NCBI GenBank assembly: GCA_022846035.1 | Contig: AP025580.1 | Location: 1,116,001-1,180,000, forward strand | Length of the DNA stretch: 64,000 bases | DNA from: Christensenellaceae bacterium | GTDB lineage: Bacteria; Bacillota; Clostridia; Christensenellales; Christensenellaceae | Direction of reading: 5' to 3' | Part shown: one piece after another, positions 6,996 to 21,163 of the stretch | How positions within the stretch are numbered: the stretch's first letter is position 1 | Layout: the number at the start of each line of letters is the position of its first letter | Position numbers and translations under genes: made by a program | The notes under the pieces: generated by a model | The model's input: only the letters and a program-made list of their open reading frames with translations | Databases searched by the model: none | Told to the model about the DNA's origin: nothing

Positions 6996-8951
<1,956 letters not shown>

Positions 8952-8973
8952 TTAGATTTTTTAAAATTTCTTG

Positions 8974-9000
8974 TTAGCACTCAAATGAAGCGAGTGCTAA
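8974..9000. promoter_or_regulatory. CIRCE operator (HrcA site) of groESL
   Basis: TTAGCACTC (8974-8982), nine bases, then GAGTGCTAA (8992-9000): a perfect 9-9-9 CIRCE inverted repeat. It lies between the groES promoter and ATG, the usual position for repression by HrcA and heat induction. No hrcA gene is in this window. Confidence 0.97.
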
Positions 9001-9013
9001 TATCGTTATTTCT

Positions 9014-9042
9014 ATGATATATATAATCATGAAATAAATCAA
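9014..9042 (-). promoter_or_regulatory. sigma-A type promoter of groESL
   Basis: On the minus strand: TTGATT (9042-9037), a 17-base spacer and TATCAT (9019-9014). The predicted transcript start falls a few bases before CIRCE, so bound HrcA would block initiation or early elongation. Confidence 0.7.
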
Positions 9043-9188
9043 ATAACGTAATTAGAATGAAAATGCCAAATTTTAATGTTATTTTAGATTATAATATGAT
9101 ACCTTTAAAATACTGCTAAAATCTTCGGTTTTCTTACATGCGCCGCCTCGGCGTTAAAACATGAAACCATGTAAAATAATGTGTAATA

Positions 9189-9217
9189 CTGAAAGGACAC
9201 GGCGAAAGATATATAAT
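9189..9217 (+). promoter_or_regulatory. promoter for the dCMP deaminase gene
   Basis: CTGAAA (9189-9194), 17 bases, then TATAAT (9212-9217). The start point would be near 9224, leaving a very short leader with a GAAAGG ribosome site before the ATG at 9239. The rest of the gap back to the groESL promoter is AT-rich and shows no other feature. Confidence 0.55.
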
Positions 9218-9238
9218 ATAAGATGAAAGGGATTTAAC

Positions 9239-9688
9239 ATGGATAAGTGGGATAAACGTTTTATGGATCTGGCGGGAGAGATCGCGCACTGGTCCAGCTG
9301 CTATAAACCGAACCGCAGCGTCGGAGCGATCATTGTGAAAAACAAGCGTATCGTTACGACGGGATACAACGGAGCGCCTGCGGGGATTGACAGTTGCAAG
9401 GAGCGGGGAGAGTGTCTACGTAATAACCTTGGGATTGCTTCAGGAGAGCGGCATGAGTTATGTTATGCGATCCACGCGGAGCAAAACGCGATCATCCAGG
9501 CGGCAAAGCTGGGCATTGCGATCGACGGCGCAACGATGTATTGTACGCACCAGCCCTGCGCTATTTGCGCAAAAATGATCGTCAATGCCGGAATTATACG
9601 CATTGTGTATAAATACCCTTATCCGGATGACTTTGCAAAAAAGATATTTGAAGCGGTGGATATGCAGATCGAACAGTTTAGGGACTGA
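9239..9688 (+). CDS. dCMP deaminase (ComEB family)
   Basis: Zinc-dependent deaminase expected to convert dCMP to dUMP for thymidylate supply. The 149-residue protein has the paired zinc motifs of the cytidine/deoxycytidylate deaminase fold: HAEQNAI (His ligand and catalytic Glu) and PCAICAKMI (two Cys ligands). GYNGAPAG, typical of dCMP deaminases, lies near residue 41. In Bacillus the orthologue is called comEB. It has its own promoter, but the next gene follows after 21 bases, so it may feed transcription into the redox-sensor cluster. Confidence 0.93.
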   Translation: MDKWDKRFMDLAGEIAHWSSCYKPNRSVGAIIVKNKRIVTTGYNGAPAGIDSCKERGECLRNNLGIASGERHELCYAIHAEQNAIIQAAKLGIAIDGATMYCTHQPCAICAKMIVNAGIIRIVYKYPYPDDFAKKIFEAVDMQIEQFRD

Positions 9689-9709
9689 AAGAAGACAGGG
9701 AGGTTTTTT

Positions 9710-10063
9710 ATGGTAGTAAAAGAAATAGCGGATTTATTGGACGCCGAGTTCCTGTGCGGGCAAGACAAGGCGGACATGGAGATATTGTGCGCATGCGGCG
9801 CGGATATGATGAGCGATGTTTTAGCCTTTACCAAGCATGACGCGGTGCTTTTGACGGGACTCGTCAACAATCATGTCGTCAGAACGGCGGAGATGATGGA
9901 TATTCAATGCATCCTTTTTGTACGCGGCAAACGCCCGGCGGATGACATTATCAGTATGGCCAGTGAGCGCGACATGGTCCTTCTGGCAACAGAACAGCCG
10001 ATGTTCTCGGCGTGTGGGGTTCTTTACACAAGCGGTATCAAAGGCGGAATGCGGGAGGTGTAA
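9710..10063 (+). CDS. DRTGG domain protein
   Basis: A 117-residue protein made almost entirely of one DRTGG domain, a fold otherwise found as a regulatory or linker domain in phosphotransacetylases and CBS-type pyrophosphatases. Its biochemical role is unknown. The stretch CGADMMSDVLAF followed by LLTGLVNNHVVRTAEM resembles stand-alone DRTGG proteins encoded beside [FeFe] hydrogenase genes in Clostridia. A GGGAGG site lies seven bases before the ATG. It opens a tight five-gene set running to 12868. Ligand binding, perhaps a nucleotide, is only inference. Confidence 0.85.
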   Translation: MVVKEIADLLDAEFLCGQDKADMEILCACGADMMSDVLAFTKHDAVLLTGLVNNHVVRTAEMMDIQCILFVRGKRPADDIISMASERDMVLLATEQPMFSACGVLYTSGIKGGMREV

Positions 10064-10065
10064 AA

Positions 10066-10479
10066 ATGATATACTCCCAGGAATATGATGTGGCAAAAGA
10101 TGATTTTGTCGCAGCAGGAGAGGTGTCTGCCGGCATCAAAAACAAGCTCAAGAAGATGGGAGTGGACCCGATACTGATCAGGAAAATCGCGATCGCTTCC
10201 TACGAAGCGGAAATTAATATGATCATTCACAGTTTCGGCGGACAGATGACTTTGAATATCGACGACGATGCGATCGAAATTGTATGCCAGGACGTTGGAC
10301 CGGGCATACCCGATATTGATCTTGCTATGAAAGAAGGCTACTCAACTGCTTCGGATACCGTACGGGAAATGGGGTTCGGCGCAGGTATGGGGCTGCCGAA
10401 CATCAACAAAAACAGCGACAATATGCAAATCGAATCCAGCCCTGCTGGAACAAAGCTGACATTAAAGTTCAAAATGTGA
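10066..10479 (+). CDS. RsbW-like ATP-binding protein (anti-sigma/serine kinase type HATPase)
   Basis: A 137-residue GHKL/HATPase domain with no sensor or phosphoacceptor domain, the architecture of anti-sigma factor kinases such as RsbW and SpoIIAB. The N box region ASYEAEINMIIHS, the G1-type DVGPGIPD and the G2-type GFGAGMGLPNI are all visible. I take the ATG at 10066, two bases after the previous stop; the ORF can be extended to 10012 only by reading into that gene. Partner and target are unknown. The context suggests it passes on a redox or hydrogen signal from its neighbour at 10509. Confidence 0.85.
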   Translation: MIYSQEYDVAKDDFVAAGEVSAGIKNKLKKMGVDPILIRKIAIASYEAEINMIIHSFGGQMTLNIDDDAIEIVCQDVGPGIPDIDLAMKEGYSTASDTVREMGFGAGMGLPNINKNSDNMQIESSPAGTKLTLKFKM

Positions 10480-10508
10480 GTCTACATATATTGAAATGAG
10501 GCTTGGCT

Positions 10509-11837
10509 ATGGAAAAGTATTTTCATTCGGTGCGTCTGGAGAAAGAAAAATGTTCCGGATGTACCAATTGTATCAAGAGGTGTCCGACGGAAGCGATCAG
10601 GGTGCAAAAGGGAAAGGCCAAGATATTGGCGGAGCGCTGCATTGACTGCGGCGAATGTATCAGGGTGTGTCCTTATCATGCGAAAAACGCAGTGACGGAT
10701 CCGCTTTCCAGTATCAATAATTTTAAATATAAAATCGCTTTGCCTGCACCGGCCTTATATGCGCAGTTCAAAATGCTCAACAACAGGGATCGTGTGGACA
10801 GGGTCCTGTCGGCCCTTAAGACGATGGGCTTTGACGATGTGTTCGAGGTAGCGCGCGGCGCGGAGATTTGTTCAAAGGCGATTTCCGGCGAGTTAAAAAA
10901 GAGGAAGAAAAGGCCGTTGATTTCTTCCGCGTGTCCTGCGGTTGTACGCCTGATTCAGGTGAATTTTCCGGAATTGCTCGATAATGTGGTTAATGTGGAC
11001 GCTCCGGTAGAGGTAGCGGCCAAGGTAGCAAAGCGTGAATTTGCCCAAAAGAATAATGTCGATATTTCGGAAATCGGCGCATACTTTATTACGCCCTGTC
11101 CTGCTAAAATGACGAGCATAAAATCACCGCTCGCCAAGGATAAGAGCGAGGTAGACGGCGCGATTTCCATTTTGGAGGTATACGGCTTGCTGGCGGGGCA
11201 GTTAAAGGCATCGGAGACTAGGCCGTTCGATGGGGAAAAGGCCTCCGCCAAGGGGATTGGCTGGGCGAACAGCGGCGGGGAAGCGTTTGCCGTAGGAGAG
11301 AAGAACGCCTTGTCTGTGGACGGCATTGCCAATGTTGCGCGGGCGCTGGAGGACATCGAAAACGATAAGCTGAAAGACCTGGATTTCTTTGAGGGGCTGG
11401 CGTGTATCGGCGGATGCGTAGGAGGCCCGCTGGTATTCGAAAGCTCGTTTGTCGCGCAGTCGCGCGTAAATACGATCTGTGATTTGATCGGGTTTAATAA
11501 GGATGTGGAAAAGCATGCAGAAAGCTATGCAAGCGAGGGGATTGCGTCGACCATGAAATCGATTGAGCCGCTGGATGTGATGAAATTAGACGACGACCGG
11601 ATGGTCGCGCTCCAGAAAATACAGCAGATCGACGAGCTGCTGGAAATCCTGCCGGGAATGGATTGCGGGAGCTGCGGCGCGCCGTCCTGCCGCGCTCTTG
11701 CCGAGGATATTGTACGGGGACACGCGACGGAAATGGATTGCGTCTTCATGCTCAAGGAAAAGGTACGCTATCTGGCGGAGGAAATGGTGGACCTGGCCAG
11801 TAAGGATAAAATAAGAGGGGATGGAGAAGAAGAATGA
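10509..11837 (+). CDS. sensory-type [FeFe] hydrogenase-like iron-sulfur protein
   Basis: A 442-residue protein: two N-terminal [4Fe-4S] motifs (Cys 15/18/21/25 and 44/47/50/54), an [FeFe] hydrogenase catalytic domain, and a C-terminal [4Fe-4S] domain of CX2CX4CX16C form (Cys 386/389/394/411). The four H-cluster Cys positions are kept: C142 in SSACP, C197 in TPCPAK, and C299/C303 in ACIGGC. The Cys that normally precedes C142 and relays protons is Ala, and L2 lacks the usual Glu. This fits slow, sensor-like HydS enzymes rather than a turnover hydrogenase. No PAS domain is present. I choose ATG 10509, seven bases after TGAGG, over the TTG at 10503. Confidence 0.88.
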   Translation: MEKYFHSVRLEKEKCSGCTNCIKRCPTEAIRVQKGKAKILAERCIDCGECIRVCPYHAKNAVTDPLSSINNFKYKIALPAPALYAQFKMLNNRDRVDRVLSALKTMGFDDVFEVARGAEICSKAISGELKKRKKRPLISSACPAVVRLIQVNFPELLDNVVNVDAPVEVAAKVAKREFAQKNNVDISEIGAYFITPCPAKMTSIKSPLAKDKSEVDGAISILEVYGLLAGQLKASETRPFDGEKASAKGIGWANSGGEAFAVGEKNALSVDGIANVARALEDIENDKLKDLDFFEGLACIGGCVGGPLVFESSFVAQSRVNTICDLIGFNKDVEKHAESYASEGIASTMKSIEPLDVMKLDDDRMVALQKIQQIDELLEILPGMDCGSCGAPSCRALAEDIVRGHATEMDCVFMLKEKVRYLAEEMVDLASKDKIRGDGEEE

Positions 11838-12172
11838 CTACGGCGGAATTAGCAAAAAAACTGGAACTAAAGTTATTGACGACAGGGGTCAGCGAGACTG
11901 CTGAGGTGTCGGACGGGTGCGTATGCGATCTTTTAAGCTGGGTTATGGCGCGCGGCGAGGCAGGTATGGCGTGGATCACGGTACAAACGCATTTAAATGT
12001 TGTCGCGGTGGCTTGCCTGCACGAATTTGCTTGTGTAATTATCCCTGAAAATATTGAAGTACCGGCGGCGACGATCGATAAGGCCACGGAAGAAGGAGTG
12101 GCCATTTACTCCTCGCCAAAAACGTCTTATGCGCTTTGCTGCGGCTTGTGCGGGCTTGGGGTCGGACAATAA
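11834..12172 (+). CDS. small DRTGG-like protein
   Basis: A 112-residue protein resembling a second, diverged DRTGG-type domain (GCVCDLLSWVMARGEAG in the middle). The C-terminus is rich in Cys and Gly (YALCCGLCGLG). Function is unknown. It starts inside the stop of the sensory hydrogenase gene (ATGA) and ends four bases before the PHP gene, so it is firmly part of the same operon. The three closely spaced Cys could bind a metal or a cluster, but that is only inference. Confidence 0.75.
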   Translation: MTTAELAKKLELKLLTTGVSETAEVSDGCVCDLLSWVMARGEAGMAWITVQTHLNVVAVACLHEFACVIIPENIEVPAATIDKATEEGVAIYSSPKTSYALCCGLCGLGVGQ

Positions 12173-12175
12173 TTC

Positions 12176-12868
12176 ATGGAACTTTATTACGATTTTCATA
12201 TTCACTCCGCTCTTTCGCCCTGCGCGGATAATGATATGACGCCGAATAATATCGTGAATATGGCCAGGCTCAAAGGACTGGACGCGATTGCGGTCTGCGA
12301 CCACAACAGTACGAAAAACGTTATGGCGATAGAAAAGGTAGCGCGCGGCGCGGGCATTACATTCCTGCCGGGCATAGAGATGACGACGGCGGAAGAAGTA
12401 CATATGCTTGCGTTGTTTGAAAAGGCGCATGCGGCGGAAGCGTTCGGCGATATGGTTTATGCGGCCTTGCCGGATATTCCAAACAAACCGGACTATTTTG
12501 GTGAGCAACTGGTGATGGATGAAAACGATGAAATCACCGGAAGCCTCGACAAATTGTTAATTTCGGCATTGCCGTTTGATATGGACGAATGCTGCGCGAG
12601 GGTTTTGGAATATGGCGGTTATGTAATTCCCGCGCACATCAACAAGGGAGCGAATTCCGTGCTTGCCAATTTAGGGTTTTTCCCGCCCCAGCTTACGTTC
12701 AAGACGATCGAGGTAGTGAAAGGATTGGCCATTACCAACGATATATCGGGCTTTCATAAAATTCATTCCTCGGACGCCCACAATTTATGGCAAATTTCGG
12801 AGAGGGAAAATGCAGTGGAGATTTCTGAGAATTCGGTTTCCGCTATTTTAAAAAAATTGTGTGTATAA
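12176..12868 (+). CDS. PHP-domain metal-dependent phosphoesterase
   Basis: A 230-residue PHP (polymerase and histidinol phosphatase) domain, expected to hydrolyse a phosphoester using two or three metal ions. The ligand set looks complete: His8 and His10 in FHIHS, Asp42/His43 in CDHN, Glu68 in GIEMT, His76, His154 in PAHINK, and Asp200/His202 in SSDAH. Relatives include nucleotide phosphoesterases and RNase AM-type exonucleases; the substrate here is unknown. It closes the sensor-like operon. A hydrolase beside two DRTGG domains invites the idea of a small nucleotide signal, which is inference. Confidence 0.85.
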   Translation: MELYYDFHIHSALSPCADNDMTPNNIVNMARLKGLDAIAVCDHNSTKNVMAIEKVARGAGITFLPGIEMTTAEEVHMLALFEKAHAAEAFGDMVYAALPDIPNKPDYFGEQLVMDENDEITGSLDKLLISALPFDMDECCARVLEYGGYVIPAHINKGANSVLANLGFFPPQLTFKTIEVVKGLAITNDISGFHKIHSSDAHNLWQISERENAVEISENSVSAILKKLCV

Positions 12869-12975
12869 ATTCACAAAAATTCGTGCAATGTGATTGATAA
12901 TATGGTAAAATAATTTTCGTGTAAAGAATGATCTACTAAATTTAAGGGTTAGGATGGATAAGGAGGCACTTTTTA
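12869..12975 (+). other. intergenic region upstream of hydC
   Basis: A 107-base AT-rich gap holding a TTCACAAAA stretch, the 15-base element at 12892-12906 also found upstream of 15309, a possible -10 (TAAAAT, 12906-12911) without a convincing -35, and a strong AAGGAGG before the hydC ATG. No terminator is evident after the PHP gene, so read-through into hydC is possible. Confidence 0.6.
12892..12906 (+). repeat. 15-base element, copy 1 (GATTGATAATATGGT)
   Basis: Identical to 15065-15079. With a 4-base gap the match continues into TAATTTT in both places. Each copy lies upstream of a hydrogenase transcription unit, so a shared regulatory site is likely. The regulator is not identifiable from sequence. 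Confidence 0.6.
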
Positions 12976-13461
12976 ATGACCAACACAGCAGAAACTCAGG
13001 TAAAATACGATGAATTGAAAGCATACATTGGGGAAACGATGAAAAAGCCTGGTCCTCTTATGCCGATCATGCAAAAAGCGCAGGATCTTTTCGGTTCTCT
13101 GTCGTTTGACGTACAACGGTTTATTGCGGAGGAAATGGGAATTCCCATGACGGACGTTTACGGTGTAGCGACTTTTTACTCGCAGTTTGCATTGGAACCG
13201 AAAGGCAAACATGTCATCGGGGTATGCATGGGAACGGCCTGCTATGTTAAGAAAGCGGAAGGCGTTCTTAACGCACTGGCGGACGATTTACAGACTGCGC
13301 CCGGCAATACGACGCCGGACGGACTGTTTACGCTGGAAGCTACGCGTTGCCTTGGATGCTGCGGATTGGCGCCGGTCATGATGATCGACGATCAGGTATA
13401 CGGCAGGCTGAAGCCGGAAGATATACCGGATATACTGAACATTTACAGAAACAAACAATAA
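12976..13461 (+). CDS. hydC: NAD-linked [FeFe] hydrogenase subunit HydC (NuoE-like)
   Basis: A 161-residue thioredoxin-like [2Fe-2S] protein homologous to the 24 kDa subunit of complex I. The cluster ligands are visible as Cys84 and Cys89 (VCMGTACY) and Cys125 and Cys129 (RCLGCCG). In electron-bifurcating HydABC hydrogenases this subunit sits beside the flavin subunit HydB. Here hydC is followed by an ATPase gene, while hydB and hydA lie 2 kb away behind a reverse-strand gene. The ATG is six bases or more after AAGGAGG. Confidence 0.92.
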   Translation: MTNTAETQVKYDELKAYIGETMKKPGPLMPIMQKAQDLFGSLSFDVQRFIAEEMGIPMTDVYGVATFYSQFALEPKGKHVIGVCMGTACYVKKAEGVLNALADDLQTAPGNTTPDGLFTLEATRCLGCCGLAPVMMIDDQVYGRLKPEDIPDILNIYRNKQ

Positions 13462-13485
13462 AGGATCGCTTTTGAAGGCAGGACA

Positions 13486-14037
13486 ATGAAAGAGATTTCA
13501 TTGCATATTATGGATATCGTCCAGAATTCCATCACGGCAAACGCTACGTTGATTGAATTGCAGCTTGATATTCAGTATGCGGACAATACGGTTTCGGTTT
13601 CCATCGAGGATAATGGAAAAGGCATGAGCAGAGAAATGCTCGAGCATGTTACCAGTCCGTTTGTCACCACGCGTACAACGCGCAGGGTAGGTCTTGGAAT
13701 ATCGCTTTTCCAGGCGGGAGCACAAGCGTCCGGCGGGAGCTTCGAAATTGATTCGGAGGAAGGCGTTGGCACGACTGTGAAAGCGGTATATGGTCTTGAC
13801 CATCTGGACCGCCCGCCGATTGGCGACTTTGCGGGAACGGTGCATACTTTGATTGTCAGTAATCCGGATATTGATTTTGTGGTTACGGTGACTGTCGACC
13901 AGGCAGAAGAAGTGCTCGATACCAGAGACGTCAGGGCGACACTCGGACAGGATGTGCCGTTGGATACGCCGGAGGTATCGCTGTGGCTGAAAGAAAGTCT
14001 GGATGAAATGTTCAGGCCGGAATATGTTGATTTTTAA
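13486..14037 (+). CDS. histidine-kinase-like ATPase of the hydrogenase cluster
   Basis: A 183-residue protein whose first 110 residues are a GHKL ATPase domain: DIVQNSITANA (N box), EDNGKGM (G1) and RVGLGISLFQ (G2). The remaining 70 residues resemble no domain I know. It has no His phosphorylation domain and no membrane segment. Similar genes sit directly after hydC in clostridial and acetogen hydrogenase operons. Whether it phosphorylates a protein or only binds ATP is unknown. A bidirectional terminator follows directly. Confidence 0.82.
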   Translation: MKEISLHIMDIVQNSITANATLIELQLDIQYADNTVSVSIEDNGKGMSREMLEHVTSPFVTTRTTRRVGLGISLFQAGAQASGGSFEIDSEEGVGTTVKAVYGLDHLDRPPIGDFAGTVHTLIVSNPDIDFVVTVTVDQAEEVLDTRDVRATLGQDVPLDTPEVSLWLKESLDEMFRPEYVDF

Positions 14038-14049
14038 AAGAAAACAAAA

Positions 14050-14075
14050 AACAGGCGCTTGCCGCCTGTTTTTTT
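14050..14075. terminator. terminator between the hydC unit and the epimerase gene
   Basis: Stem ACAGGCG / CGCCTGT around CTTGC, preceded by an A-rich run and followed by seven T. It fits termination from both sides, since the next gene ends 11 bases downstream on the minus strand. Confidence 0.85.
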
Positions 14076-14085
14076 ATGATAATCT

Positions 14086-14934
14086 TTATTGGAAAACCGT
14101 TTTCAGGAAAGAAAGTCCGTTTTTTGCAAGAGCTTCGGGCGACTCGGCGAGCGGCCGCCAAAGAGAAGCCGCCTTGGCAATGGCGACGCAATCCGGTGTG
14201 AAAGATTCGATATTACAGTAATCGTCATAGCCCGCATCGTCGATCGCAGCTTTGATCGCCCGCCAGTCAAAATTATCCTCGCCGGGAGTTCCACGGTTAT
14301 TGCTGCAGGTATGAAAGTCAAAGATTTTACCTTTGGCGGCGCGGATTGCCGCAGGAATATCAGGTTCTTCAATGTTCATGTGAAACGTATCCAATAGGAA
14401 ACCGACATTTTCCATATTGATGAGGTCGAGCAGCTCAAGCCCTTGTTCTACGGTATTGATAAAATCCGTTTCAAAACGGTTAAGCGGCTCGATTGCCAGC
14501 CTAACATCGCGCTCGCCGGCATATTCCGCAACTGTTTTCATATTTTCGACGGCCCATGTCCATTGCTGTTTTTTTTCTTCCGCCGTGGTCATGCGCGCCT
14601 TACCAACGGAAGCATACATGGGACCGGCGATTACTTTTGAGCCTATGATGGAGGCGAGGTCGACCAGCTGTTTGATATATTCAACGCCAGCTTTGCGGTA
14701 TTCTGCGTTTTCGGAAGAAATGTCGTTTTGCTCGCCGAAAGCGCCGCACATAGACGAAAGATCGATGCCGGTTCTGTCACGCGCATCCAAAATACTATTT
14801 GTATCAATTGTGTCAAAATCCTCGACGGCAATTTCGTAAATGTCAAATCCCAGATCCTTGGCCTTCTTGAACTGCCCATAGGGATCGCTGCCGAAAGGGG
14901 AAGTAAATACATAAGAGCTGATACCGAATTTCAT
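14086..14934 (-). CDS. sugar epimerase/isomerase (tagatose/psicose 3-epimerase-like)
   Basis: A 282-residue TIM-barrel protein of the xylose-isomerase-like superfamily, closest in pattern to D-tagatose or D-psicose 3-epimerases. Metal and catalytic positions are visible: Glu in AIEPLNRFETD (about residue 150), Asp in LLDTFHMNIEE, His in DFHTCSNNRGTPG, and Glu in NIESF near residue 244. The true sugar cannot be told. It has no sugar transport or catabolic neighbours and lies opposite to the hydrogenase genes, dividing them. Its own promoter (14970-14998) and ribosome site AAGGAG suggest independent expression. Confidence 0.88.
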   Translation of the reverse strand: MKFGISSYVFTSPFGSDPYGQFKKAKDLGFDIYEIAVEDFDTIDTNSILDARDRTGIDLSSMCGAFGEQNDISSENAEYRKAGVEYIKQLVDLASIIGSKVIAGPMYASVGKARMTTAEEKKQQWTWAVENMKTVAEYAGERDVRLAIEPLNRFETDFINTVEQGLELLDLINMENVGFLLDTFHMNIEEPDIPAAIRAAKGKIFDFHTCSNNRGTPGEDNFDWRAIKAAIDDAGYDDYCNIESFTPDCVAIAKAASLWRPLAESPEALAKNGLSFLKTVFQ

Positions 14935-14969
14935 GGGTTTTAATCTCCTTGCGTTGAAACTTTACGGTC

Positions 14970-14998
14970 ATTATATCCCGGCACGCCATGGGATTCAA
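14970..14998 (-). promoter_or_regulatory. promoter of the epimerase gene
   Basis: On the minus strand: TTGAAT (14998-14993), a 17-base spacer and TATAAT (14975-14970). The start codon is at 14934, giving a short leader with AAGGAG. Confidence 0.75.
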
Positions 14999-15064
14999 AT
15001 ACACCCTGTAAAAAAGTTGTACGGTCTTGAATTTAAAAAAGTAAAATTTATGGCATATTATTGC

Positions 15065-15079
15065 GATTGATAATATGGT
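15065..15079 (+). repeat. 15-base element, copy 2 (GATTGATAATATGGT)
   Basis: Identical to 12892-12906. This copy ends 20 bases before the -35 box at 15099, a suitable place for an activator or repressor. Confidence 0.6.
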
Positions 15080-15098
15080 TAATTTTTCACAAAACTGG

Positions 15099-15127
15099 TT
15101 GCGTTCGCTTTCTTATATTGATATAAT
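15099..15127 (+). promoter_or_regulatory. promoter for the hydB-hydA unit
   Basis: TTGCGT (15099-15104), 17 bases, then TATAAT (15122-15127). The start would be near 15134, leaving a leader of about 175 bases before the first ATG. Confidence 0.65.
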
Positions 15128-15308
15128 AAAAACGGATCAATTTGTCTTTTTTTTCACTATTCGTTGAAATCGGACATTTTTCGTTCATATTGGCGGTTTG
15201 GTTTGGAAAGAATACGGTGGGCCGTTCACCGTTAAAAAAGAAACGGCAGCCGGAAAAAATTATGCAACTGAAATAGCATAAGCGGTCTATTTATAAAGGG
15301 GAGAGGTC

Positions 15309-15686
15309 ATGAAATCACTTGAGGAACTGGAAGCAATCAGAAAAAAGATGCAGGACAAAGTGGATATTCGCAAGAATGACGCGGAAAAGCGCATTGTTGT
15401 AGGTATGGCGACGTGCGGCATAGCCGCCGGAGCGCGTCCGGTGCTGCAGGCTTTTGTGGACGAGGTCGCCACAAGAGGCTTGGGCGATGTATCGGTATCG
15501 CAAACGGGATGCATCGGGGTATGTCGGCTAGAGCCAATCGCCGAGGTTTTTATGCCGGGACAGGAAAAGGTCACCTACGTTAAAATGACGCCGGAAAAAG
15601 CGAAAAAGGTTATTGCCGAACATATCGTAAACGGTAAGATAGTAACGGAATATACCATCGGGTATGCGGAACAAAACAACGCTTAA
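15309..15686 (+). CDS. small ferredoxin-like protein of the hydrogenase operon (HydD-like)
   Basis: A 125-residue thioredoxin-like ferredoxin relative, first gene of the hydB-hydA unit. Proteins of this type accompany HydABC in acetogens and other Clostridia. Only three Cys are present: Cys36 in MATCGIAAG, and Cys68 and Cys72 in TGCIGVCRLEP. The usual four-Cys [2Fe-2S] set (compare VCMGTACY in HydC) lacks its second ligand, so cluster binding is uncertain; an accessory or structural role is possible. A good GGGGAGAGG precedes the ATG. Confidence 0.83.
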   Translation: MKSLEELEAIRKKMQDKVDIRKNDAEKRIVVGMATCGIAAGARPVLQAFVDEVATRGLGDVSVSQTGCIGVCRLEPIAEVFMPGQEKVTYVKMTPEKAKKVIAEHIVNGKIVTEYTIGYAEQNNA

Positions 15687-15716
15687 GCAGCAAAAATTCG
15701 GGAGGTTAAGAGGTAG

Positions 15717-17507
15717 ATGGATTTTTATCGCTCACATGTATTAGTGTGCGGAGGTACTGGTTGTACTTCTTCGGGGTCGGGGGAAATCATTGAAAGATTT
15801 GAAAATGGCCTGAGCGCACATGGATTGGAAAAGGAAGTAAAAATAGTCAGAACGGGGTGCTTCGGTTTATGCGAAGCGGGTCCGATTGTAATCGTATATC
15901 CGGAGGGGGCTTTTTACAGTAGGGTAAAGCCGGACGATGTTGACGAAATTGTAGAAGAGCACCTTTTAAAGGGCCGTATCGTAGAACGGCTATTGCACAA
16001 GGAGGAAGATACAAGCGAAGTTGCGACGACGCTTGACGATATTGAATTCTATAAAAAACAGAATCGTGTTGCTCTTAGAAATTGCGGTGTGATCGATCCG
16101 GAAGTGATTGACGAATACATCGCTTTTGACGGTTATAGGGCACTTGGATTTTGTCTGACGGAAAAAACGCCGCAGGAAGTGATTGACATTATTAAGCAAT
16201 CAGGACTGCGCGGTCGCGGCGGCGGCGGGTTCCCGACAGGGCTCAAATGGCAATTCGGCCATGACGCCAAAGGCGACAAAAAATATGTAATTTGTAACGC
16301 TGACGAGGGCGATCCGGGCGCGTTTATGGACCGTTCCGTATTGGAGGGCGATCCGCACAGCGTCATCGAAGCGATGGCCATTGCCGGCTATGCGATCGGC
16401 GCGGATATGGGTTATGTATATGTGCGTGCGGAGTATCCGATCGCAGTCAAGAGATTACAGATCGCGATCGACCAGGCAAAGGAATACGGATTGCTTGGAG
16501 AAAGAATATTTGATACGGATTTCAATTTTGACATCGAAATCCGCCTCGGCGCGGGCGCTTTTGTATGCGGCGAGGAAACGGCGCTGATGGAGTCCATTGA
16601 GGGACGGCGCGGAGAACCGAGGCCGAAGCCGCCGTTCCCGGCAAACAAAGGCCTGTTTGGAAAGCCGACGATCATCAATAACGTTGAGACGTTGGCTAAT
16701 ATTCCGCAGATTATCCTAAAGGGCGCGGAATGGTTTGCCTCGATGGGTACGGAAAAATCCAAAGGAACAAAAGTATTTGCGCTCGGCGGCAAAATCAACA
16801 ATACCGGATTGGTGGAAATCCCGATGGGAACGACGCTGCGCGAGGTTATTTACGATATTGGCGGAGGTATTCCGGACGGTAAAAAATTCAAAGCCGCGCA
16901 GACAGGCGGCCCTTCGGGCGGTTGTATTCCTGCGGAGCATCTGGACCTCAAAATCGATTACGATACGCTGACATCCATCGGCTCGATGATGGGTTCCGGC
17001 GGCCTGATCGTTATGGATGAAGATAACTGTATGGTTGACGTGGCAAAATTCTTCCTTGATTTTACGGTGGATGAATCTTGCGGTAAATGCCCTCCGTGCC
17101 GTATCGGTACCAAACGTATGCTGGAAATACTGGAACGTATAACGGACGGTAAAGGGAAACCGGGAGATATTGAAAAGCTGATTGAGCTGGGCGAAAGCAT
17201 TAAGGCGGGAGCTTTATGCGGCCTTGGAAAGACGGCGCCGAACCCTGTGCTTTCGACGATTAAGTATTTCAGGGATGAATACGAAGCGCATATTTACGAT
17301 AAGCGCTGTCCCGCCGGCCAGTGTCAGCAGTTGCTCGTTTATGAGATTATTCCCGAAAAATGTATTGGTTGCGGCATGTGTGCAAGAATATGTCCGGCGG
17401 AGGCGATTACGGGTGAGAAAAAACAGCCGTATCATATCGATCCGGATAAGTGCATCAAGTGCGGAGCGTGCGTGGAAAAATGTAAGTTCTCCGCAATCAA
17501 GAGATAA
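15717..17507 (+). CDS. hydB: NAD-linked [FeFe] hydrogenase flavin subunit HydB (NuoF-like)
   Basis: HydB carries FMN and the NAD(H) site and links pyridine nucleotide to the hydrogenase and ferredoxin. Domains in 596 residues: an N-terminal thioredoxin-like [2Fe-2S] domain (CGGTGC, TGCFGLC), an NuoF core with GRGGGGFPTG and CNADEGDPGAFMDR (FMN/NADH), an SLBB segment, the [4Fe-4S] motif SCGKCPPCRIG, and a C-terminal pair of [4Fe-4S] motifs (CIGCGMCARIC, CIKCGACVEKC). This is the layout of bifurcating HydB, longer than respiratory NuoF. Ribosome site GGAGG, ATG at 15717. Confidence 0.96.
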   Translation: MDFYRSHVLVCGGTGCTSSGSGEIIERFENGLSAHGLEKEVKIVRTGCFGLCEAGPIVIVYPEGAFYSRVKPDDVDEIVEEHLLKGRIVERLLHKEEDTSEVATTLDDIEFYKKQNRVALRNCGVIDPEVIDEYIAFDGYRALGFCLTEKTPQEVIDIIKQSGLRGRGGGGFPTGLKWQFGHDAKGDKKYVICNADEGDPGAFMDRSVLEGDPHSVIEAMAIAGYAIGADMGYVYVRAEYPIAVKRLQIAIDQAKEYGLLGERIFDTDFNFDIEIRLGAGAFVCGEETALMESIEGRRGEPRPKPPFPANKGLFGKPTIINNVETLANIPQIILKGAEWFASMGTEKSKGTKVFALGGKINNTGLVEIPMGTTLREVIYDIGGGIPDGKKFKAAQTGGPSGGCIPAEHLDLKIDYDTLTSIGSMMGSGGLIVMDEDNCMVDVAKFFLDFTVDESCGKCPPCRIGTKRMLEILERITDGKGKPGDIEKLIELGESIKAGALCGLGKTAPNPVLSTIKYFRDEYEAHIYDKRCPAGQCQQLLVYEIIPEKCIGCGMCARICPAEAITGEKKQPYHIDPDKCIKCGACVEKCKFSAIKR

Positions 17508-17525
17508 GAAGGGAGATAATGTGAT

Positions 17526-19268
17526 ATGGTTTCATTAACAATAGACGGCATTAAAGTTGAAGTGCCGGATAATACAAGCGTTCTTGACGCTGCAAGGAAA
17601 GCGAATATCGATATTCCGACGCTTTGCTATCTGAAAGGCGTCAATGCAATCGGCGCATGCCGTATTTGCCTCGTTGAGGTCAAGGGAAATCCGAATCTGC
17701 AGGCGGCGTGTGTGCTTCCTGTTGCGGAGGGCATGGAAGTGCTGACATCTTCGGAAAAGGTCTTAAAAGCAAGGAAAGTAAGCCTTGATTTGTTGCTTTC
17801 AAACCACGACAGGGAATGCCTGACATGTGCGCGTAACGGCAACTGCGAACTGCAGACGCTGGCAGAAGAGTTTAACATGAGGACTATCCGCTATGAAGGC
17901 GAGAAGATCAAAAAAGACATTGACGACGAGTCGGTATCCGTCGTACGTAATCCGAACAAATGCGTAATCTGTAAACGCTGCGTGGCCGCCTGTGCAAACC
18001 AGCAGGGCGTCGGCGTGATCAGCGCGACCAACCGAGGATTTAAAACGACGATCGAACCCGTATGGGGAAAATCGCTGGTTGACGTGCCGTGCATCAACTG
18101 CGGACAGTGTATCGTATCCTGTCCGGTGGGCGCGCTGACTGAAAAGAGCGAGATCGATAAGGTATGGGCGGCGCTCCACAATCCGGACCTGCATGTGGTT
18201 GTGCAGCCGGCGCCGGCCGTACGTGTGGCGATTGGCGAGGAATTCGGTATGCCGATGGGCACGAGGGTGACAGGAAAACTGGCGGCTTCACTGCGCAAGA
18301 TTGGTTTTGATAAAGTGTTTGATACGGACTTTGGCGCAGACCTGACGATTATGGAAGAAGGTTACGAGTTTATTAACCGCGTGAAGAACGGCGGAACATT
18401 GCCGATGATTACATCCTGCTCTCCGGGCTGGATCAAATTTGCGGAATATTTCTTTCCGGATATGCTGGATAACCTTTCTACCTGCAAATCTCCGCATCAG
18501 ATGCTGGGCGCGATCATCAAATCGTATTATGCTGAGCAGAACGGGATCGATCCGGCAAAAATCTTTACGGTTTCCGTTATGCCGTGTACGGCTAAAAAGT
18601 ACGAAAAAGAGCGCGCAGGCGAAGCCGGAACGGGGTATGAGGACGTGGATGCCGTGCTGACGACGCGCGAAATGGCGCAGATGATCAAGGAAGCGAATAT
18701 TGATTTTGTCAATCTGCCGGATGAGGATTTTGATGAGGTGCTCGGAACTTCTACGGGCGCGGGCGTTATCTTCGGCGCGACGGGCGGCGTTATGGAGGCG
18801 GCGCTTCGCACGGTGGCGGAAGTGCTGACCGGCGAAGAATTGAAAAGCGTCGATTTCTGCGATGTTCGCGGTATTGCGGGCATTAAGGAAGCGGAGGTCA
18901 AAATTGGCGATATGAACGTTAAGGTTGCGATCGTCAGCGGTACAGGCAATGCGAAAAAGCTTTTGGAAGCGATTCGGCGCGGCGAAAAGGAATATCATTT
19001 TATCGAGGTCATGGCTTGCCCGGGCGGATGCGTAAACGGCGGCGGACAGCCGATTGTTTCGGCACGGGTGAAGAATGTGCTTGACCCGCGTATCGTACGC
19101 GCACAGGGACTCTACGACGAGGATTGTGATAAGCCTTTGCGGAAATCGCATGAAAATCCTGATATTCAGAGGCTTTACAAGGATTTCCTCGGCGAACCCA
19201 ACAGTCACAAGGCACATACGCTTTTGCATACTTTTTATGAACAAAAGCCCAAATACAGGGAACAGTAA
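17526..19268 (+). CDS. hydA: [FeFe] hydrogenase catalytic subunit HydA
   Basis: HydA reduces protons or oxidises H2 at the H-cluster. In 580 residues: [2Fe-2S] (Cys34/45/48/62), a His-ligated [4Fe-4S] (His94, Cys98/101/107), two [4Fe-4S] (Cys146-156 and 189-199), then the catalytic core with TSCSPGW (296-302), VMPCTAKKYE (Cys354) and MACPGGCVNGGG (Cys498/502), and the small-subunit-like C-terminus. In L1 the second Cys of the textbook TSCCP is Ser299; such TSC[CS]P spelling is tolerated in the family. With HydB and HydC it should form a cytosolic enzyme coupling ferredoxin, NADH and H2. No maturase genes are in the window. Confidence 0.97.
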   Translation: MVSLTIDGIKVEVPDNTSVLDAARKANIDIPTLCYLKGVNAIGACRICLVEVKGNPNLQAACVLPVAEGMEVLTSSEKVLKARKVSLDLLLSNHDRECLTCARNGNCELQTLAEEFNMRTIRYEGEKIKKDIDDESVSVVRNPNKCVICKRCVAACANQQGVGVISATNRGFKTTIEPVWGKSLVDVPCINCGQCIVSCPVGALTEKSEIDKVWAALHNPDLHVVVQPAPAVRVAIGEEFGMPMGTRVTGKLAASLRKIGFDKVFDTDFGADLTIMEEGYEFINRVKNGGTLPMITSCSPGWIKFAEYFFPDMLDNLSTCKSPHQMLGAIIKSYYAEQNGIDPAKIFTVSVMPCTAKKYEKERAGEAGTGYEDVDAVLTTREMAQMIKEANIDFVNLPDEDFDEVLGTSTGAGVIFGATGGVMEAALRTVAEVLTGEELKSVDFCDVRGIAGIKEAEVKIGDMNVKVAIVSGTGNAKKLLEAIRRGEKEYHFIEVMACPGGCVNGGGQPIVSARVKNVLDPRIVRAQGLYDEDCDKPLRKSHENPDIQRLYKDFLGEPNSHKAHTLLHTFYEQKPKYREQ

Positions 19269-19279
19269 AAACGATAAGA

Positions 19280-19309
19280 AAAGCGGCTGCTGTGATGGCA
19301 GCCGCTTTT
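19280..19309 (+). terminator. terminator after hydA
   Basis: Stem AAGCGGCTGC / GCAGCCGCTT with a 7-base loop and a T run, 12 bases after the hydA stop. Confidence 0.92.
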
Positions 19310-19387
19310 TCATGTGCGGGATAAAGGATTTATACAACCGTATGTGTAATTATATTATAAGGGAAAATTTTCGGAAAGGAGTACAGG

Positions 19388-21163
19388 ATGCCATATTTTT
19401 CGGAAGATTGGATACAGGAGTTGCTTGCAAAGGTAAATCTCGTAGATTTGATTGGCGAATATGTAACATTGCAAAATAAATCCGGACGATGGTGGGCATG
19501 CTGTCCTTTTCATAACGAAAAAACTCCCAGCTTTTCCGTGACGCCCGACAAGGGCTTTTTCCATTGCTTTGGCTGCGGCAAGGGAGGCAACGCAATTCAC
19601 TTTATCATGGAACAGGAAAAAATGACCTTTCCGGAAGCCTGCCGCTATCTGGCGGATAAGGTGAAATTGCCGGTGCCGGACGTAAAGGACGATTCCAACT
19701 ATGAAAAGCGTAAACAGCAGCGCGAAAGAATTTTTGCGATGAACAAGACAGCCGCGCGGTTTTTTCATAAGTGTCTGTATGAAGCGCAGGGAAAAGCGGC
19801 GCTTTCCTATTTACACAAGCGGGGCCTTAACGACCGTATCATCAAAACATTCGGCATGGGCTTCGCGCCGGATAAATGGGACGGTCTTCTTCGTTTGCTG
19901 GAAAAGGATGGCTGCACCAAGCAAGAAATGCAGCTTGCGGGACTGGTAAAAATAAACGACGGCAAGTGTTATGATATGTTTCGTAACAGGGTCATTATGC
20001 CGATCATTAATACGTTTTCCAATGTGATCGGGTTTGGCGGCCGCGTGATGGACGATAGCTTGCCCAAATACTTGAATTCACCGGAAACGGCTGCGTTCAA
20101 CAAAAGCCGGAATCTTTATAACCTGAATATGATCCGCAAGCAGAAGAACCTTTCTCACCTGATTCTTGTGGAGGGATATATGGACGTAATCGCCATGTAT
20201 GCATACGGTATTCCGGAATGCGTCGCGACGCTGGGAACAGCGTTGACGCAGGACCAGGCGAGGCTTTTAAAGCGGTATGTGAATAATGTATATGTTTCCT
20301 ATGACGGCGATGAGGCGGGGAAAAAGGCGACTTTGCGCGCTTTGGATATTCTTGCGCAGGAGGGTATTGAAACACGCGTCGTGAGCATTCCGGCAGGCCA
20401 GGATCCGGACGAATTCCTGAAGAAATACGGCAGGGACGGTTATCTCAAACTGATGAAATCCTCTTTGCCGCTTATGGATTATAAATTCCAGATTGCAGCT
20501 CAAAAGTATGATCTGGGCGACGGTTACCAGAAAGAAAAGTTCGCTAAGGAATGCGTTGCGCTTTTAAAGGGCGTTAATAGCGCAATGATACGTGAAAAAT
20601 ATATGAAAAAGCTTTCTGAAATGACAGGCTTTTCGGTGAATGCGATTGCGCAGGATACGCAGAGCACTGCGGAGCCAGCCGTTAGCTGGAAACCGCCGCA
20701 AAAGACGCGGGAAACAAAGTCGGCGGACCTGAAAACGGAAAACTGCCTGATCAGGCTGCTGGCGACGAATCCGCAGAACGCCTCCAGGCTGGATGGAAAG
20801 CTGACGGAAGAGGATTTTAAGCATCCGGCAAATAAAAAAATATTTTCATATACTTTAGAGTGTGCAAAAAAAGGGTTTTCGCCCACCAATGCCGAAATAT
20901 TATCCGTACTGCAAAGCGAAGAAGAGCTCGCTCACGCGACCGAGCTGTTCAGCCTGGCAGACGACATGCTCGGCGAGCTGAAGAATTTTGATGATTTCTT
21001 TGAAGACTGTGTACGGCGTATTCAATTAGGCAGGTTGGAAGCGGATTTGAAAATTGCCAACGTAAAGTATGAAAGTGAAACGGATCCGGAGCAAAGAAAA
21101 GAGTTATTGGAACAAATCAGCAGGCTGACGAAAGAGATTCATAAACTCAAGACAAGTTTTTAA
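19388..21163 (+). CDS. dnaG: DNA primase
   Basis: DnaG lays down RNA primers at the replication fork. The 591-residue protein has a CHC2 zinc domain (Cys39, His42, Cys60, Cys63 in CCPFH and [10 protein letters not shown]), the Toprim core with VEGYMDVIA about residue 259 and [10 protein letters not shown] about 300 (metal-binding acidic residues), and a C-terminal helicase-binding region. It starts at ATG behind GAAAGGAG and is followed 20 bases later by rpoD, the classic macromolecular synthesis pair. The upstream gap holds only a weak promoter candidate ending in TATTAT near 19353. Confidence 0.97.

Follow-up and report, generated by a model that had tools for sequence, protein, structure and literature searches.

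A conserved gene cassette around a putative sensory group D [FeFe] hydrogenase as a candidate redox switch beside energy-conserving enzymes of anaerobes

The putative sensory [FeFe] hydrogenases (HydS) of group D form class M2e, which is said to go back to Calusinska et al. In the excerpts of the literature cited throughout this text, M2e genes lie near genes of bifurcating hydrogenases, with kinases close by (PMC3561251, Table 6), and these earlier accounts set M2e HydS beside kinases and HydABC without naming a proven partner. In TamHydS of Thermoanaerobacter mathranii, H2 induced changes in secondary structure, the C-terminal cluster was not reduced by H2, and the excerpted report describes the interaction partner as unknown (PMC13104023). 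The same 2026 paper regards the identification of the interaction partners of group D enzymes as a critical step towards understanding H2 signalling. The only group D enzyme so far characterised had measurable but low activity (PMC10407848). Related literature (excerpts of PMC10055695, PMC4320612, PMC12174285 and PMC3478167) was also considered, and papers on the Cthe genes, on hydCMBAFX and on Rnf with the bifurcating hydrogenase yielded no partner for group D HydS. Here we describe a gene set around a group D HydS in a 64,000-nucleotide stretch of a Christensenellaceae genome (GCA_022846035.1, contig AP025580.1, positions 1,116,001 to 1,180,000 of the forward strand; hereafter the window). 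On balance, we lean towards the view that the set is a cassette dedicated to redox signalling and has ferredoxin/NAD energy enzymes under its control, in this genome the electron-bifurcating HydABC.

The set comprised five genes on the + strand. They encode a DRTGG-domain protein (D1, 117 aa, 9710–10063), a SpoIIAB-like GHKL ATPase and putative serine kinase (A, 137 aa, 10066–10479; HATPase_c and HATPase_c_2), the putative sensory hydrogenase of group D (HydS, 442 aa, 10509–11837; Fe_hyd_lg_C and PF04060), a second DRTGG-family protein (D2, 112 aa, 11834–12172) and a PHP-family phosphoesterase (P, 230 aa, 12176–12868; Pfam PHP). D1 was assigned by Pfam DRTGG, the fold match of its AlphaFold model and its fusions to A, and D2 by family profiles and by its own clade. 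The genes were separated by 2 bp (D1/A), 29 bp (A/HydS) and 3 bp (D2/P), and HydS and D2 overlapped by 4 bp; the HydS start was placed at an ATG at 10509, with an alternative TTG at 10503. A preliminary description of this DNA had proposed such a tightly packed module, and the open reading frame (ORF) coordinates agreed with it. Its naming of the parts, as a putative sensor, a SpoIIAB/RsbW-type ATPase, a DRTGG pair and a PHP phosphoesterase, was borne out. It had also known of no function for the whole set; among open-licence PMC papers we found neither a description of all five genes nor any work combining DRTGG, hydrogenase and PHP domains; one paper, on Desulfovibrio genetics, matched DRTGG and hydrogenase together.

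The window HydS carried Fe_hyd_lg_C (134 bits), ferredoxin-type domains and the C-terminal FeS domain PF04060 (48.2 bits), and no PAS family was listed by Pfam at E ≤ 0.05. It was aligned with the HydS of other loci: 140 regions were fetched by HydS match and one was dropped since it held no true HydS (L161), leaving 139 and the window. The H-cluster cysteines of the three signature motifs were conserved (C142 in 139/140 rows with one gap; C197, C299 and C303 in 140/140 each), as were the C-terminal cluster cysteines C386, C389, C394 and C411 (140/140). The proton-relay Cys of group A was absent: position 141 held A, S, T or N, and Cys in 0 of 139 filled rows. In TamHydS, two Met residues near the diiron site are replaced by L and S (PMC8163306). 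At the corresponding diiron-site position 195, T or S stood in 138/140 rows, and position 297 held L in the window and in 37/140 rows, Q in 81 and M in 6. The group D proton path of TamHydS runs through S249, E252, D265 and E289 (PMC10407848); transferred by a constant offset of +6, with TamHydS itself outside the alignment, it corresponded to E258 (136/140), D271 (131/140) and E295 (140/140), while S255 was Ser in only 69/140. This residue pattern, together with the C-terminal cluster and the lack of a PAS match, is what one expects of a putatively sensory HydS of group D (M2e). The maturase HydG was encoded in the window's genome.

Conservation was surveyed in 398 genomes of the phylum from 271 genera, with four candidates scored per genome, so that some HydS may have been missed. 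A HydS match (E ≤ 1e-40) was present in 164/398 genomes and 103/271 genera. Locus frequencies are conditional on HydS because the loci were chosen by HydS match. Thirteen of the 140 loci lay near contig ends and were left out. All five genes were recognised in 78 of the remaining 127 uncut loci, window included. Taken singly and with fusions counted, A was recognised in 120 loci, P in 105, D2 in 104 and D1 in 95; the numbers are lower bounds, for D1 and D2 because the ORF filter loses short overlapping genes. The order D1–A–HydS–D2–P was kept in many families, with median gaps of −4, +12, −4 and −4 nt. Twelve uncut loci had P without D2, and there HydS and P were 216–372 bp apart in 11 and overlapped in one.

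Phylogenetic profiles over the 398 genomes, after removal of 13 weak A matches (E above 1e-45) and two weak PHP matches (G025, G034), linked the parts further. HydS and A occurred together in 163 genomes, HydS alone in 1, A alone in 7 and neither in 227. In the sole genome with HydS only (G151), the contig breaks off 89 bp from one of two HydS matches, on the flank expected to hold A. For HydS and P the corresponding numbers were 152, 12, 5 and 229, and for HydS and the catalytic HydA of group A6 (HydA6) 154, 10, 133 and 101. HydS and A behave almost as one unit, and HydA6 is often present without them. Since order and spacing recur in many families and HydS and A co-occur almost perfectly, the set is not a chance arrangement. 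The preliminary description had stated that similar sets occur near HydABC in Clostridia and had proposed a gene-neighbourhood survey for all five; that survey, with the order, spacing and HydS/A profile, showed the genes to be conserved together beside HydABC.

The set was also found in loci chosen by A. In 80 named loci, which ranked highest among at least 575 matches to the window A, HydS was assigned in 76, D1 in 76, P in 70, D2 in 64 and HK2, a second ATPase treated below, in 62, contig ends not being allowed for. These loci included Draconibacterium isolates (L212, L244) and spirochaete metagenome-assembled genomes (MAGs; L173, L246). Draconibacterium belongs to the Bacteroidota; with these isolates and the spirochaete MAGs, the set reaches beyond Bacillota. 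Reduced versions existed as well: A–HydS pairs with neither D nor P next to them (L138, L142, L034, L036, L039), and HydS–D2 without A (L077, L082, L086, L090) in genomes that each hold a fuller second copy (L168, L116, L169, L167). The latter four stood as HydS–D2–Hyd, with A, P and HK2 unrecognised, in four genomes of one family; they are possibly specialised paralogues.

Natural fusions joined neighbouring proteins of the set. D1–A fusions were found in 13 loci, A–HydS in two (L128, L131), HydS–D2 in two (L148, L149) and P–HK2 in five (L089, L093, L094, L095, L118), so that every adjacent pair of the cassette is fused somewhere except D2–P. Pfam was run on 8 of the 22 fusion proteins and recognised both halves in seven; in L171 the DRTGG half was seen by our own profile only. 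In a FastTree phylogeny of A, with only the two fusions of A coded, the fusion state changed at least three times. The simplest reading is that the fused neighbours form one interacting set or complex that includes HK2, and the fusions suggest that the cassette proteins are the sought partners of group D HydS. HK2 (183 aa, 13486–14037, +) is a second GHKL ATPase, histidine-kinase-like but without HisKA, recognised by its domains, its fold and the fusions to P. It carries a C-terminal extension, and its fold search returned GHKL ATPases (MutL, histidine kinases, topoisomerase VI) and no closer function. Because it is fused to P and travels with cassettes that lack HydS (L178, L208, L211, L237), it is suggested to be a member of the set beyond the five genes.

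In a profile search of the PDB, every match of the ATPase A at E ≤ 1e-5 was a chain of anti-sigma F (SpoIIAB). The preliminary description had called it RsbW-like; the SpoIIAB/RsbW type stands, yet with 46 bits for SpoIIAB and 21 bits for RsbW the former is the closer relative of A. The N, G1 and G2 boxes were intact (E47, N51, D76, G78, G80, G105, G107 and G109 in 130/130), and the Glu of GHKL kinases has a catalytic role. The ATP lid (GFGAGMGLPN) was longer than the SpoIIAB lid. The closest named relative, from Christensenella hongkongensis, was 80% identical. The likeness to SpoIIAB raises the alternative of classical partner switching, in which A would be an anti-sigma factor whose sigma factor is encoded at some other site and would be freed by HydS, with D1 and D2, upon a change in H2. 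The SpoIIAB structures as closest solved relatives and the intact ATP site fit this alternative. However, the fold of D1 is DRTGG and not STAS, the one STAS match in the window's genome lies about 130 kb off, and inspection by eye of the 28 neighbour clusters that recur most in 220 loci (at least 8 loci each; one representative each, Pfam on four), where no STAS-directed search was made, revealed neither a sigma factor nor a STAS protein. We therefore consider partner switching with a sigma factor unlikely.

The genes downstream point to likely targets. As the preliminary description had said, the module stands just 5' of the catalytic hydrogenase genes: a HydC/NuoE-like subunit (12976–13461, +; PF01257) begins 107 bp after P. 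It is followed, beyond HK2, by a 2Fe-2S protein, HydB/NuoF and HydA of group A6 (15309–19268, +; NuoF family for HydB, NF040763 over its cut-off for HydA). The usual run HydC–HK2–2Fe-2S–HydB–HydA is broken here by an opposite-strand gene (14086–14934, −), a sugar isomerase by eye. The window's genome had two HydA6-type matches at E ≤ 1e-200, and an RnfC over its cut-off at 511945–513234; its RnfC and STAS genes stood away from the cassette. A promoter scan gave 18 sites against 11 expected, and 11 terminators against 7.7, all on the − strand; these counts are not decisive for co-transcription. No RNA family reached its gathering score in 8900–20000. Rex operators were absent near the genes, with two in the window against 3.7 expected.

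The set is tied to more than HydABC. Cassettes without HydS, of composition D1–A–D2–P–HK2, preceded rnfCDGEAB in Marinisporobacter MAGs (L208, L211) and the genes for acyl-CoA dehydrogenase, EtfB and EtfA in an Anaerovorax MAG (L178), and A–D2–P–HK2 preceded rnfCDGEAB in an Anaerosolibacter MAG (L237). The distance to the catalytic operon was about 300–425 bp, which makes co-transcription uncertain. Cassettes with HydS also stood directly 5' of Rnf, in Sedimentibacter (L221) and a Tissierellales MAG (L195). RnfC was inside the fetched stretch in 23/139 HydS loci and 7/80 named loci; in the neighbourhood maps, one gene label covers NuoE, 2Fe-2S, NuoF and RnfC-like genes. Six of the seven genomes with A and no HydS had RnfC 0.7–6.5 kb past A and in the same orientation; in G279, RnfC and A lay on different contigs. 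Four of the seven (G033, G109, G137, G293) had no HydA6 match near A, and a second A copy of G293 had EtfA 7 kb further on. The A copies of the four HydS-less cassettes were nested among HydS-linked A at two places in the A tree (FastTree), which suggests that HydS was lost and the rest of the cassette retained. Because copies without HydS precede Rnf or acyl-CoA dehydrogenase–EtfBA, the core appears to be portable, a cassette for the control of ferredoxin/NAD enzymes in which the H2 input through HydS is optional.

The same distribution could reflect assembly or repair. The GHKL ATPases and DRTGG proteins would then chaperone the Fe-S and flavin enzymes HydABC, Rnf and acyl-CoA dehydrogenase–Etf, and HydS would be a scaffold rather than a sensor. 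GHKL folds do include chaperone-like ATPases, and the set stands beside three classes of flavin/Fe-S enzymes. In contrast, 133 of the 287 HydA6 genomes had no HydS match, so the set is not generally needed for HydA6 assembly, and the H-cluster cysteines, with most residues of the group D proton path, are retained in HydS, which would be odd for a scaffold. An assembly role appears quite improbable.

The DRTGG proteins and the PHP enzyme allow a further alternative. D1 passed the Pfam DRTGG cut-off (30.2 bits; cut-off 25.2), and its AlphaFold model (pLDDT 91.5) was nearest to the solved DRTGG protein AF1212 (2ioj; TMq 0.84, E 1.7e-6), with further matches to the N-domains of HPr kinase and the DRTGG domain of a pyrophosphatase and no clear ligand from this search. 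The window D2 stayed under the cut-off (15.7 bits) and its kinship came from family profiles; the D2 parts fused to HydS passed it (L148, 30.1 bits; L149, 25.7 bits). D1 and D2 were two clades with an error-free split (support 100, FastTree; 91 D1 and 112 D2 rows). Two residues, S35 and T49, were invariant (D1 93/93, D2 112/112; 205 rows), and D32 was nearly so (D1 91/93, D2 112/112; 203/205). Since AF1212, the sole solved DRTGG chain aligned over that stretch, differs at the positions of D32 and S35, these may be specific to this system, as a phosphorylation or ligand site. P exceeded the PHP cut-off (35.4 bits; cut-off 26.4), and among solved structures it was nearest to PHP phosphoesterases, EndoQ and a 5'-3' exoribonuclease among them. 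The candidate metal ligands H8, H10, D42, H43, E68, H76 and H154 were present in 115 of 116 rows (one gap), D200 in 112 and H202 in 113. A near-invariant Pro-Cys (P15 112/116, C16 115/116) stands near the usual PHP Asp ligand, for which reason the metal set of P may differ from that of usual PHP enzymes.

In a nucleotide-signal loop, DRTGG would bind a nucleotide or dinucleotide, P would hydrolyse it, and A and HK2 would be ATP-dependent effectors, without phosphotransfer to D1 or D2. The nearness of P to nucleic-acid-cleaving PHP enzymes among solved structures is in its favour; we know of no ligand of stand-alone DRTGG proteins, which counts against it. According to the excerpted source, DRTGG domains occur in CBS-pyrophosphatases and are thought important for the response to diadenosine tetraphosphate (Ap4A), but the nucleotide of the pyrophosphatase sits on the CBS domains (PMC7705103). 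We give such a loop a low probability. Least probable of all is that HydS is a minor catalytic hydrogenase whose turnover is tuned by its neighbours, with no signalling to HydABC or Rnf: the weak activity of the characterised group D enzyme (PMC10407848) would suit it, but HydS-less cassettes persist beside other enzymes.

For the redox-signalling cassette that we favour, the following course of events can be proposed. HydS would bind the H-cluster and read H2 or the redox state, by analogy with work on group D enzymes. It would sit in a complex with A in which, as the fusions imply, D1 lies towards A and D2 towards HydS, and its H2-dependent state would alter how A turns over nucleotide or acts as a kinase. 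As switch partners of A, the DRTGG proteins might do for it what STAS proteins do for SpoIIAB, with the invariant Ser35 of D1 and D2 as candidate phospho-acceptor; phosphorylation is the least certain step. P, coupled to HK2, would strip the phosphate or signal and so reset the switch. The output would be the activity or expression of HydABC, Rnf or the acyl-CoA dehydrogenase/Etf enzyme.

Several points weigh against this reading. The whole case is built on sequence and gene context. The 107-bp gap between P and HydC makes co-transcription uncertain, and no output protein was conserved throughout the loci. A stayed below the NCBIfam equivalog cut-offs (spIIAB 46.2 bits against 135; RsbW 21.3 against 145), and no STAS gene was linked to the set in the window's genome, whose single STAS match is at 995331–995603, about 130 kb away. 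The conserved D32 and S35 may serve ligand binding rather than phosphorylation. Several loci were without D1, D2 or P, in part through the ORF filter and in part truly. HydS-free copies imply that H2 cannot be the only signal. In G009, G144 and G279, hydrogenase genes confound the linkage of A to Rnf, because HydA6 lies 5.8–7.5 kb 5' of A. P was unmatched at E ≤ 1e-20 in four of the seven genomes with A and no HydS (G009, G033, G144, G279), and since A stands without HydS and P in these four, their copies are not full cassettes. Where a Rex-type gene is linked, control may run through Rex alone.

More tentatively, and with less confidence than for the signalling role as such, we suggest that D1–A–D2–P–HK2 is an unrecognised, portable kinase–phosphatase switch for redox control in anaerobes. 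It would use DRTGG in place of STAS proteins and plug into HydABC, Rnf or acyl-CoA dehydrogenase–Etf, and group D HydS would be an exchangeable H2 input that binds the ATPase directly. The A–HydS profile and the fusions name candidate partners, which makes the question of HydS partners directly testable. HydS-less copies beside Rnf and acyl-CoA dehydrogenase/Etf would tie three energy-conserving systems of anaerobes to one cassette, with relevance for H2 production, acetogenesis, butyrate formation and gut fermentation.

Other genes recurred around the cassette. The remaining ORFs of the 220 loci were clustered, and Pfam was run on one representative each of the Rex, SPOR and RseC clusters. 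A Rex-type repressor gene (e.g. L160, 7500–8162, +) was present in 31/220 loci, always on the cassette strand; it stood upstream within 200 bp in 14 loci and downstream in 15. An RseC-type gene lay 0.5–1.0 kb beyond the cassette in 12/220 loci. Linked Rex, redox-responsive by family, and RseC fit a redox-control setting and equally another control route. A gene for a SPOR-domain protein was upstream in 39/220 loci, and leucyl-tRNA synthetase, found in 33/220, was judged a chance of genome context. In the window, a dCMP-deaminase gene (9239–9688, +) stops 21 bp before D1; it had no relatives in the other 140 fetched regions. A 90-aa protein (L149, 1174–1443, −) recurred in nine loci. By eye it resembles the small TM1266-type regulator of hydrogenase systems. 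Some loci contained chemotaxis genes. An [FeFe] hydrogenase-like protein adjoined the A–HydS pair in L142 (6956–8866, −), where it was fused to a methyl-accepting chemotaxis signalling domain, and similarly in L156 (6797–8704, −). A CheW gene adjoined A in L156, and a CheW-like gene (by eye) preceded D1 in L135 and L140. These loci hint at H2 taxis. Near the A–HydS-only loci L138 (12035–15423, −) and L142 (10924–14351, −) were genes for a response regulator and a Cache/GAF/PAS histidine kinase (by Pfam in L138, by eye in L142), a possible other output route.

Compared with known systems, the cassette resembles the SpoIIAB/RsbW modules in that A aligns to SpoIIAB with its Glu, Asn and nucleotide site intact, and a kinase, small partners and a phosphatase would correspond to cassette parts. 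The phosphatase of SpoIIAB/RsbW systems is PP2C. The window differs by its longer ATP lid, by DRTGG proteins as candidate partners where those modules have a STAS antagonist, none of which is linked to the set in its genome, and by a PHP enzyme as the putative stand-in for the phosphatase. D1 shares the fold of the DRTGG domain of CBS-pyrophosphatases and of the HPr kinase N-domain; here, in contrast, the domain is stand-alone or fused to A or HydS, falls into two fixed clades and has nearly invariant D32 and S35. The hydrogenase is like the group D HydS proteins TamHydS, Cthe_0335 and Csac_1857, which the excerpted sources describe with N-terminal [4Fe-4S] clusters, a C-terminal [4Fe-4S] cluster, no PAS domain, a lost proton-relay Cys, and HydABC and a kinase-like gene nearby (PMC8163306, PMC13104023, PMC3561251). 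It shares with group C (M2f: HfsB of Thermoanaerobacterium, HydS of Ruminococcus albus, TmHydS) the combination of a putative H2 sensor with signalling genes and a catalytic hydrogenase, and in the excerpted source HfsC resembles serine phosphatases (PMC11837493). Group C differs in carrying PAS, and HfsB is paired with this phosphatase-like gene, whereas the group D HydS described here is paired with a kinase-like ATPase.

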